Assembly (NCBI GenBank): GCA_003285105.1
Contig: CP030158.1
Span: 2,580,501 to 2,644,500, forward strand
DNA from: Roseithermus sacchariphilus
Lineage (GTDB): Bacteria; Bacteroidota; Rhodothermia; Rhodothermales; MEBIC09517
Length of the DNA: 64,000 nucleotides
Direction of reading: 5' to 3'
Positions within the stretch are counted from its first letter, which is position 1. Each line of letters opens with the position of its first letter. The notes beneath the pieces were generated by a model, which saw only the letters and a program-made list of their open reading frames with translations, was not told where the DNA came from and did not search any database. The position numbers and the translations under genes are program-made. Shown one piece after another: positions 32,495 through 36,090 of the stretch.

Positions 32495-32588
32495 CGACGC
32501 GATGGGGTGAGCCGGCGGATGGCCGGCGGATCCTGTGGGCGCCGGCGGCATACCCACACCCCCACGCACGTCCACGCCCCGATCCGCC

Positions 32589-33971
32589 ATGCGAGCCTAC
32601 CGCGTCTCGGTGAACCTGAAGCTCGGGCTGGTGATTGCCGCCGTAGCCATCGCGGTGGCGTCGCTGGCCTACACGAACCGGCTGGTCCGGCAGCTCCGCG
32701 AGCGCGAGCAGGCTTTCATCGAGCTGTGGGCCCGGGCGCTGGAGCAGGTGCCCCGGATGCAGGCCCAGTCGATCAACCCGTACCAGCAGGAGCTGGCGGA
32801 GCTGGAGGCGTTCCTGCAGGACCTCGCCCGCGGCGAGGCCCCTCGCCCGGCGCCCGAGCGGCTGGCGGCGTTCCGGGAGGCCGTGGCCTGGGCGCAGGGG
32901 ATGCCGCCCGCCGGTGAGCTGAACTTCATCACCAACGAGATCCTGGTTGGCCGGACGTTCAGCATTCCGGCCATCGTCACGGATTCGAGCGAGAGCCCCA
33001 TCTTCGTCAACTGGCGGAACGTGCCGGTCGATACCACGCTCGCGGCCCTGCCGCCGTCCGAGCGCGAACGCGCGCTGCGGCGGCTGGAGCGGTTGCAGGC
33101 CGAGATGGACCGGGTCTACGACCCCATCCCCATCGTGCTGAGCTTCCCCGCCGGCCCCGACCGCGCCCCGGTTCAGCTGCGGCAGTACGTGCACTACGGA
33201 GAGTCCCGCCTGATCCGCGAGCTGCGGTGGTTCCCGTACGTGCAACTGCTGTTCATCGGGTTGTTCATCCTGGTCGGGTACCTCGGTTTTTCGTACGTCC
33301 GGCGCAGCGAGCAGCGCAGCCTGTGGGTGGGGATGGCCAAGGAAGCCGCCCACCAGCTCGGCACGCCCATCTCCAGCCTCATGGGGTGGCTGGAGTTGCT
33401 GCGCCTGCCGGACCTGCCCCCGGAGCAGCGTCACGAGGCGCTCGACGAAGTCGAGAAGGACATCGAGCGGCTGAAACGGGTGACGAGCCGCTTCTCGGAC
33501 ATCGGCTCGCTGCCGAAGCTGGAGGTGCAGCCGCTCGGGCCGGTGATTGAGAGCACGGCCGATTACATCCGGCGGCGGGTACCGCAGCAGGGCAAGCGCG
33601 TCGCGCTCGAGGTCCGGGTGGAGCCGGGGCTGCAGGCCCCGCTCAACGCCGAGCTCTTCGAGTGGGTGATCGAGAACCTCCTGAAGAACGCCCTCGACGC
33701 CATCGAGACGGAAACCGGCCGCATCGACGTCGAGGCATGGCGGGCCGGAGATCGCATCGTCATCGAGGTGCGGGACACCGGGCGGGGGATCGACCGGCGG
33801 CAGTGGAAGAACGTGTTCCGGCCGGGGTACAGCACCAAGACGCGCGGCTGGGGCCTCGGCCTGAGCCTGGCCAAGCGCATCGTGGAGGACTACCACGGCG
33901 GCGAGCTGACGCTGGCGAAGTCGCGCCCGGGGCACGGGACGACGTTTCGGATCGAGCTGCCGGCGGCGTAG
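32589..33971 (+). CDS. Sensor histidine kinase
   Basis: The protein has 460 residues. A transmembrane helix at about 10-28, a sensor region of about 185 residues outside the cytoplasm and a second helix at about 217-237 give a classical membrane sensor. The phospho-acceptor His255 sits in 'KEAAHQLGTPISSL', followed by the N box 'ENLLKNALDA' (362-371), G1 'DTGRGI' (396-401) and G2 'TRGWGLGL' (418-425). The sensor domain is rich in Arg/Glu helices and has no recognised ligand-binding fold. No response regulator is encoded next to it, so it is an orphan kinase in this window. Confidence 0.93.
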   Translation: MRAYRVSVNLKLGLVIAAVAIAVASLAYTNRLVRQLREREQAFIELWARALEQVPRMQAQSINPYQQELAELEAFLQDLARGEAPRPAPERLAAFREAVAWAQGMPPAGELNFITNEILVGRTFSIPAIVTDSSESPIFVNWRNVPVDTTLAALPPSERERALRRLERLQAEMDRVYDPIPIVLSFPAGPDRAPVQLRQYVHYGESRLIRELRWFPYVQLLFIGLFILVGYLGFSYVRRSEQRSLWVGMAKEAAHQLGTPISSLMGWLELLRLPDLPPEQRHEALDEVEKDIERLKRVTSRFSDIGSLPKLEVQPLGPVIESTADYIRRRVPQQGKRVALEVRVEPGLQAPLNAELFEWVIENLLKNALDAIETETGRIDVEAWRAGDRIVIEVRDTGRGIDRRQWKNVFRPGYSTKTRGWGLGLSLAKRIVEDYHGGELTLAKSRPGHGTTFRIELPAA

Positions 33972-34019: not shown

Positions 34020-34577
34020 TCAGGAGGGGAAGGAGATGCGGTCCGGGAGCGCGGGGTCGTCGAGCGGGGTGACGGCCACGAAGATGTCATCGCGGTGGCG
34101 CCAGACAAGGACCGTGTCGTTCTCGAAGCGTTGCAGGTCGAAGGAGCGGTCCCGTTCGATGTTGCGCAGGATTTCCGGGGCCAGGCGGATGCGGTCTTCG
34201 TACTGGTTGAGCAGGGCGTAGGTGTAGGTGAAGAGCGCGATGGGCAGCTCGGCCGTTTGATCCTGGTAGAGGAGCACCGGCACCTCGACGCCGGGGGCCA
34301 CCTCGCAGATGTCCACGCCGATGAGGGCGGTGCCCTCGATGTCCGGCACCACGACCCGCCATCCGAGCCGGTCGCGGATGTAGCGTTCGATGGCTTCGGG
34401 GGCGGGGCTCTGCACCGAGGGGCGGACGAGGCCGGCCTGCCGGGCGGACAGGGCGATGAGGTTGACCTCGGGGGTACGCTCGAACAGGGAGGCGCCGCCG
34501 TAGCCGATGAGGGCGGCCGTGATGATGAGCAGGAGGACGAGCACGGCGCGCCGGACGCGGCTCGGGGCCGAGGGGGG
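34020..34577 (-). CDS. Membrane-anchored C-terminal half of a probably frameshifted sigma-like protein
   Basis: In this frame the segment reads 'SRVRRAVLVLLLIITAALIGYGGASLF', a single transmembrane helix, followed by about 150 residues of extracytoplasmic protein ('RYIRDRLGWRVVVPDIEGTALIGVDICEVAPGVEVPVLLYQDQ' and 'YTYALLNQYEDR'). No acceptable start codon lies just upstream in the frame; the only candidate, a GTG inside the helix, would remove its basic flank. A one-base slip at the C6 run (complement of 34572-34577) joins it smoothly to the sigma-like half. The C-terminal domain resembles the extracytoplasmic portion of membrane anti-sigma factors in general layout only. Confidence 0.6.
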   Translation of the reverse strand, partial: PPSAPSRVRRAVLVLLLIITAALIGYGGASLFERTPEVNLIALSARQAGLVRPSVQSPAPEAIERYIRDRLGWRVVVPDIEGTALIGVDICEVAPGVEVPVLLYQDQTAELPIALFTYTYALLNQYEDRIRLAPEILRNIERDRSFDLQRFENDTVLVWRHRDDIFVAVTPLDDPALPDRISFPS

Positions 34578-35239
34578 CGTCCGGGCCGGGGGGTGGGGCG
34601 AGCGGGTTCGGTGGAGGTGCGCAGGGCCGCGGCCACGCGAGGCCGCAGGGTGGGCGGCACGGGGGTCAGGTGGGCGGCGAGCGCCCGGGCCAGCAGGCGC
34701 GGCACCTCGTCCGCCTCCAGGCCCTGATCCAGCAGCCGGCGGTCTGCCGGCGAGGCTCCGGCGTACAGATGGCGTCGCAGCGCGGCGGCGGCCCGCTCGA
34801 AGCGGACCTCGGCGGCGGAGGCCGTCGTGCCCAGCAGCCGGGCGATCTCGGGCCAGGACAGCTGCTCGACGGCCCGCAGGTGCAGGACGTGCCGGTCGGC
34901 ATCGGGCAGGGCTGCGAAGAGCCGGGGGAGGACCGCCTCGGCGTAGGCCCGGGCCAGCCGGCGGTGCAGGGTCGTTGCTGCCGGTGGGGCCGGGCCGGCC
35001 GGCCGTTCCGTACGCTCCCGGTGCACGGCGACCATCAGGTCCAGGAGGTCGGTTCGCTCGGGCGCGGGCCGCTCCGTGGCCCGGGCCTGCCGGTAGGTCG
35101 CTTCCACCAGCGCGGCTGCCTGGTCGGCGTCGGCCGTGAGGAGCTGCGCGAAGCGGAACAGCGCGTCCAGGTGCTCGAAGGGATCTCGGGAGCCGGGGGA
35201 CCGGGGCTGGGCCGCCGTCAGGCAGAAGGGGATGAGCAT
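34572..35239 (-). CDS. Sigma-factor-like N-terminal half, frame broken at a poly-C run
   Basis: ATG 35239 starts 'MLIPFCLTAAQ'. Residues about 23-55 resemble sigma region 2 ('HLDALFRFAQLLTADADQAAALVEATYRQA') and about 120-170 resemble region 4 ('LPDADRHVLHLRAVEQLSWPEIARLLGTTASAAEVRFERAAAALRR'), followed by an Arg/Pro-rich linker. In the given sequence the frame then runs on through 34570 into a nonsense Ser/Pro-rich stretch. With one more C at the C6 run the linker 'RPGRPP' continues as 'SAPSRVRRAVLV' into the membrane helix, giving a 406-residue sigma-TM fusion. This could be a sequencing error, a real mutation or programmed slippage. Confidence 0.65.
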
Positions 35240-35289: not shown

Positions 35290-36090
35290 TTATCGGTCGT
35301 CGAGGAAGACCACGTTGATCGGGTCGCCCTTTCGAATGCTGAGCAGATCCGCCGCGTTCCCGGCATGGACGGCAATCTCCAGCAGCCCGCTGCTGCCGAT
35401 CAGCAGCAGCGGTTCGCCCGGGGCCACGTCGCCGTAGGTGGTGTGTAGCCCGTGCAGGATGGCGCTGCCGGCGAAGCACTTGATCGGCCGTCCGGCACGG
35501 CGGGCGTGCAGCAGGTCGGCCGGGATGTTCGTGATGCAATTGCCGAAGTGGTCGATGTGGACGACCCAGCCCCGGATGCCCTGGGCATCGGGGATGGGCA
35601 GGGCCCAGTGCATCGGCCGCAGCGCGTCGATGGGCGTGCCGACGTCGGAGAGGGTGCGGCCGGCGGCCAGGTGGGCGGCCACGGGGGCGAAGATGTCCCG
35701 GCCGTGGAAGGTCTGGCTCGGGTTCGGGGTGCGCCAGTAGGCCGGGCGGTCCAGCGAGACGACCACGTCCGGCGCGGCGCCGTCGAGCAGGAGGGCAAAG
35801 AGGCCGTTGTCCGGGCCGACGAAGCGGGAGCCGTGGGCGGCCAGCGCCACGGCGCGGCGGTCGGTGCCCACGCCGGGGTCCACGACCACCAGATGCACGG
35901 CGCCGCGGGGGAAGTAGGGCACCGCCTCGCGCAGCACGAAGGCCGCCTCCATCACGTCCTGCTGGGCGATGTCGTGCGTGATGTCCACGAGGTGAGCCTC
36001 GGGCAGGATCGACAGGATGGTGCCTTTCATGGCCGCGACGTAGGCGTCGCCCGTCCCGAAGTCCGTCGTCAGGGTGATCAGGTGGGTCAC
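35290..36090 (-). CDS. SAM hydroxide adenosyltransferase / SAM hydrolase (adenosine-forming, DUF62)
   Basis: The protein has 266 residues, the normal family length. The N-terminal 'LTTDFGTGDAYVAAMKG', 'VDITHDIAQQDVMEAAFVL', 'VVVDPGVGTDRRAVA' and 'FVGPDNGLFALLL' are the signature of the DUF62/SalL-fluorinase-like superfamily, and the C-terminal beta-barrel ('HIDHFGNCITNIP') is complete. Characterised prokaryotic members hydrolyse S-adenosylmethionine to adenosine and methionine; the halogenases of the family have a different loop, which I do not see here. Cytoplasmic. The biological purpose of this reaction is still uncertain. It precedes the sigma-like gene on the same strand. Confidence 0.9.
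   Translation of the reverse strand: MTHLITLTTDFGTGDAYVAAMKGTILSILPEAHLVDITHDIAQQDVMEAAFVLREAVPYFPRGAVHLVVVDPGVGTDRRAVALAAHGSRFVGPDNGLFALLLDGAAPDVVVSLDRPAYWRTPNPSQTFHGRDIFAPVAAHLAAGRTLSDVGTPIDALRPMHWALPIPDAQGIRGWVVHIDHFGNCITNIPADLLHARRAGRPIKCFAGSAILHGLHTTYGDVAPGEPLLLIGSSGLLEIAVHAGNAADLLSIRKGDPINVVFLDDR

Follow-up and report, generated by a model that had tools for sequence, protein, structure and literature searches.

On the minus strand of a 64 000-nt stretch of the Roseithermus sacchariphilus genome (hereafter, the window), a sigma-factor-like half and a membrane half are encoded side by side in two different reading frames. The question raised by this locus is whether the organism carries one sigma-TM gene whose frame was broken in the assembly or by mutation, one gene that is read by means of slippage, or two separate genes.

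Two open frames around a pair of C6 runs

From the open reading frames, we found that the frame of the sigma-like half (N frame) has its start codon, ATG, at 35239 and is open as far as 33890, and that the frame of the TM/extracytoplasmic half (C frame) is open from 35375 to a stop at 34022–34020, both on the minus strand. The two frames are open together through an Arg/Pro-rich linker, as the first-pass annotation had described, and this linker holds two C6 runs whose positions had been given exactly: 34572–34577 and 34588–34593, read on the minus strand as 34577–34572 and 34593–34588, respectively. The former, the candidate site of a missing base, reads CGC CCC CCT in the N frame. Adding one base to the 1220 nt of the locus gives 406 codons and a stop for the joined halves, in agreement with the 406-residue sigma-TM protein proposed previously.

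The sigma-like half (220 codons, 34578–35239, minus strand) comprises a degenerate ECF region 2, a region 4 HTH, a helical linker and an Arg/Pro-rich tail, as judged from its translation, Pfam, NCBIfam and coding score. The membrane half (34020–34574, minus strand), delineated by translation, structure model and family residues, comprises one TM helix (residues 6–30 of the membrane-half sequence P0001) and an extracytoplasmic domain of ~145 residues, and ends with TGA 34022–34020. It retains every invariant residue of its family, and both halves show normal codon usage and preserve conserved residues. Open reading frames and relatives identify two neighbors that are conserved beside the sigma-like gene: a SAM hydrolase/SAM hydroxide adenosyltransferase-like gene upstream (35290–36090, minus strand) and a convergent sensor histidine kinase-like gene downstream (32535–33971, plus strand).

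A periodic-Markov gene model, applied ab initio and blind to the finding, placed a frameshift at ~34600 in the missing-base direction; according to this blind placement, the frame break exceeds chance expectation. The coding score of the N half was +0.053 per nt in its own frame (67th percentile of genes), compared with –0.041 in the C frame, and that of the C half was +0.058 per nt (78th percentile), compared with –0.173 in the other frame. That the wrong frames are open is less remarkable, because at the genomic G+C content of 68.6% a shifted frame is open for at least 690 nt at 5–13% of positions. Because the stretch between the two C6 runs is too short, the gene model cannot tell which of them lacks a base, and by sequence and gene model the second run is an equally possible site. 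When the N frame is read without a shift, ~230 out-of-frame residues are appended, ending at 33890. The TM half, which the first-pass annotation regarded as lacking a good start of its own, indeed has GTG 34544 as its sole internal start, and no purine-rich ribosome-binding site was seen there by eye.

Fused homologues in Rhodothermales

Searching in the correct frame, we detected the membrane half in 87 of the 114 genomes of the order, the R. sacchariphilus genome included. Outside the window, 68 of the 87 membrane-half matches sit in a single open frame that spans no fewer than 360 codons. At 22 of the 29 Rhodothermales homologue loci inspected in detail, the sigma-like and membrane halves occur in one frame; the other seven contain the membrane half alone behind its own start and belong to two families (L020, L021, L026 and L030; L035, L037 and L039). 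Among 19 named loci, from Rhodothermales or other Bacteroidetes/Bacteroidota MAGs, 15 were fused in one frame. The closest homologues (L015–L019) are fused, and the nearest homologues are 49% identical to the window protein. Gene order around the locus is also widely kept: YraN, (GbsR), SAM hydrolase, sigma-TM gene, histidine kinase, PurA, STAS and SecF. A search of plasmids found no relative of the membrane half.

Thus, the look into related genomes that the first-pass annotation had called for returned the fused form as the rule. Because relatives carry the fused frame in conserved synteny, sequence comparison strongly supports the view that the two halves in the window belong to one gene and one protein.

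Other arrangements were also observed at this locus. In L046, L047, L048 and L054, the TM segment and ectodomain remain and the sigma-like half is gone, one of the four having a long Pro-rich tail instead. In a member of family f4 (L210:1087–2037), the ectodomain lies behind a different N-terminal part, which contains an HTH-like stretch, had no significant Pfam match and is perhaps a further eroded sigma remnant. A literature search found no paper on the Rhodothermales sigma-TM family.

Domains of the sigma-like and membrane halves

The sigma-like half had been described as region 2/4-like. Region 4, in sigma factors the domain for –35 recognition, was recovered by Pfam above the cut-off (Sigma70_r4_2, PF08281; 35.4 bits versus 25.7), but region 2, the domain that contacts core RNAP and the –10 element, was not: the half has no Sigma70_r2 match and is absent from the Sigma70_r2 matches of the genome. 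By this region 2 test, the sigma-TM family is not a full member of the ECF sigma factors. The ECF and PhyR models of NCBIfam weakly cover the full sigma-like domain. When compared with the PDB, the family profile matched ECF sigma factors (SigE chain, E = 5e-8), and a fused homologue, modeled with a mean pLDDT of 80.6, likewise has a fold that matches ECF sigma factors. In several relatives (e.g. L053, L058 and L061), the HTH is eroded.

We also considered the sigma-like domain of PhyR, a sigma mimic with an anti-anti-sigma role, as one homologue (L011/L016) fits PhyR models better than Sigma70_r2. However, the Rhodothermales family is membrane-anchored, its matches to solved structures are led by ECF sigma factors, and a Pfam scan of the two window halves and 13 family members found no receiver domain, for which reason PhyR membership was rejected. 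The same scan found no zf-HC2 domain in these sequences.

The ectodomain of the window itself was modeled with a pLDDT of 88.4, and its profile reaches other families of the same phylum. These include L207, L213 and L214 (E = 6e-27, 1.6e-4 and 5.7e-4, respectively), in which the ectodomain sits in a zf-HC2 anti-sigma factor whose gene immediately follows an ECF sigma gene. Because the ectodomain belongs there to anti-sigma factors beside ECF sigma genes, the Rhodothermales family looks, at the level of sequence, like an anti-sigma sensor that is joined directly to a degenerate sigma module and lacks the zinc finger. A weak fold resemblance was also seen between the ectodomain model and RseB, the periplasmic regulator of sigma-E (best E = 3.4e-3), but it was too weak for membership (TM-score 0.21–0.35, ~11% identity).

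Origin of the frame break

The first-pass annotation offered an indel error, inactivation of the gene and slippage as explanations of the split. We scanned 2.06 Mb of the R. sacchariphilus genome and 0.8 Mb of a relative (G010) with a frame-aware gene model, using a frameshift penalty of 22 (at 15, the model marked ordinary gene borders); the scan recovered 71 of 97 planted deletions (73%) and 41 of 97 planted stops (42%). In the 2.06 Mb, about six other conserved genes each lack one G/C in a G/C run of 5–9, making seven with the window gene, and all breaks found are deletions at G/C runs. The only genomic copy of tgt (tRNA-guanine transglycosylase) is split at a G5 run (L102:16328, ~2356328), its halves matching TIGR00430 at 2–254 and 257–364; the only copy of agmatine deiminase lacks one base at a C6 run, which splits the gene (L066:9196, ~189196); and EboE is broken at a G9 run (L115:6869), its halves matching the profile at 1–120 and 124–378. 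The others are a Kch/TrkA-like channel (G6, L107:6506; found in a first scan), a BNR-repeat protein (C5, L121:16502) and an LPG-synthase-like membrane protein (G6, L168:7808). No such breaks were found in the 0.8 Mb of the relative, where the flags were gene borders, N runs and a single extension that reached into upstream sequence. Neither scan (2.06 Mb and 0.8 Mb) found a nonsense break, and none of the breaks seen in the scanned 2.06 Mb lay in a strictly essential gene.

A further pair of halves, one HU/CCDC81-like and N-terminal and the other TM-SPOR, occupies two frames within a Pro/Ala/Glu-rich linker at L111:14164, away from any homopolymer. This is possibly another frame break.

The break in the window and the fused relatives are direct observations, from which we infer that the observed split is a homopolymer-deletion error of the assembly (probability about 0.72), one C having been lost from one of the linker C runs and the organism carrying an intact 406-residue gene. 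Of the explanations offered earlier, an error is thus favored, because several unrelated conserved genes are broken in the same way, all in the missing-base direction and none by nonsense. Homopolymer deletions (in runs of 2–8 nt) are a typical error of long-read assembly (PMC12007338), and the shortening of homopolymers therefore provides a simple explanation of breaks across the genome. Against this reading, the completeness of the genome is given as 99.98%, and the implied error rate is just ~3–4 per Mb. We regard the frame split as probably absent from the living cell.

An unlikely but not negligible alternative is that the base is truly absent from the sequenced strain, the fused gene being inactivated by a recent null mutation or by reversible phase variation of the C run. 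True indels likewise favor homopolymers and deletions, and the order tolerates loss of the sigma half, whose absence from 7 of the 29 loci suggests that it is probably dispensable. This alternative keeps its weight because strictly essential genes are missing from the set of broken genes found. However, the locus contains a single lesion in frames that are otherwise intact and have normal codon usage. That tgt and other conserved, unrelated genes show lesions of the same kind, with none of the nonsense kind found, speaks for a technical cause. In addition, a C6 run is short for phase variation.

Programmed slippage, by –1 ribosomal frameshifting at C_CCC_CCT or by slippage on the transcript, would yield an unshifted and a membrane-tethered product, and is much less probable again. 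It retains a small share because C CCC CCT fits the X XXY YYZ slippery pattern in the N frame; moreover, a hairpin can form downstream and both frames are open. However, the downstream structure is no stronger than that of shuffled sequences (z-scores –1.16 and –1.14), and C6/G6 runs are common in the coding DNA of this genome (~0.65 per 1220 nt). Relatives are fused without any shift, so that no conserved slippery site is needed for the fused product, and the unshifted product would not be a clean soluble sigma factor, since no stop lies near the junction to prevent the out-of-frame extension. The same lesion was also found in metabolic genes, for which slippage would be meaningless. It is correspondingly doubtful, to the same degree, that regulated slippage at the C6 run produces tethered and untethered sigma-like proteins from one gene, with recoding in place of proteolytic release in this lineage.

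Finally, the existence of two separate genes, with the membrane half starting at the internal GTG, is very nearly excluded: homologues with separate genes and a clear start for the membrane half had been named as evidence against a joined protein, and a membrane half with its own start does occur in the two families described above, but these lineages lack the sigma half and therefore have no bearing on the R. sacchariphilus genome, in which, moreover, the sigma frame has no stop close to the junction, the GTG has no visible ribosome-binding site and the closest homologues are fused.

Comparison with known fused sigma factors

In IutY of Pseudomonas putida (ECF243), an ECF sigma factor and a membrane anti-sigma factor form one fusion protein, and proteolysis relieves the tethering (PMC8999054). 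As in the family described here, an N-terminal sigma domain is followed by a TM segment and an extracytoplasmic domain in one protein; relatives of the window gene encode this architecture in one open frame, as does the window after one base is added. However, IutY is part of TonB-linked iron signaling, and no such gene is found among the conserved neighbors of the sigma-TM gene; also, the ectodomain of the Rhodothermales family is that of zf-HC2 anti-sigma factors.

In ECF52 (SCO4117 of Streptomyces), ECF48 and ECF53, an ECF domain is joined to a TM region and an extracytoplasmic domain, with a Pro-rich sequence in between (PMC5826349, PMC8999054), an arrangement that the Rhodothermales family shares. 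These groups differ in having a zinc-finger anti-sigma domain between the sigma and TM parts, none being detected by Pfam in the two window halves and 13 members of the Rhodothermales family, and ECF52 is confined to Actinobacteria. The Rhodothermales family therefore does not belong fully to the zinc-finger fused groups. In the canonical pairs of ECF sigma and zf-HC2 anti-sigma factors (L207, L213 and L214), the same ectodomain lies behind a TM segment, but a zinc finger forms the cytoplasmic part, and the sigma factor has an intact gene of its own. Overall, the intact family represents a variation on the fused sigma/anti-sigma arrangement of IutY and ECF52. In these proteins, release of the sigma part by proteolysis has been shown or proposed (PMC8999054, PMC5826349), and by analogy the Rhodothermales family may work most like one of them, with proteolytic release presumed.

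Implications for the genome and the family

The new aspect of this locus is the fused family, which is mildly novel; the frame split itself most likely arose in the assembly. As a caution, a single-contig genome of 99.98% completeness still appears to contain homopolymer deletions that make tgt, agmatine deiminase, EboE and other genes look falsely like pseudogenes.

The intact gene represents a conserved, syntenic family of membrane-tethered sigma-like proteins in Rhodothermales. Its members combine an ECF-sigma-like module in the cytoplasm with a sensor domain outside it, the two being connected by a flexible Arg/Pro-rich linker and one TM helix. The membrane anchor and sensor would keep the sigma-like module at the membrane until an envelope signal frees it, probably via regulated proteolysis as in IutY. 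The freed module would then have promoters as its target or, in members with an eroded HTH, a partner protein. An anti-sigma sensor placed on a degenerate sigma module without a zinc finger offers a testable case of the merging of a sigma/anti-sigma pair.
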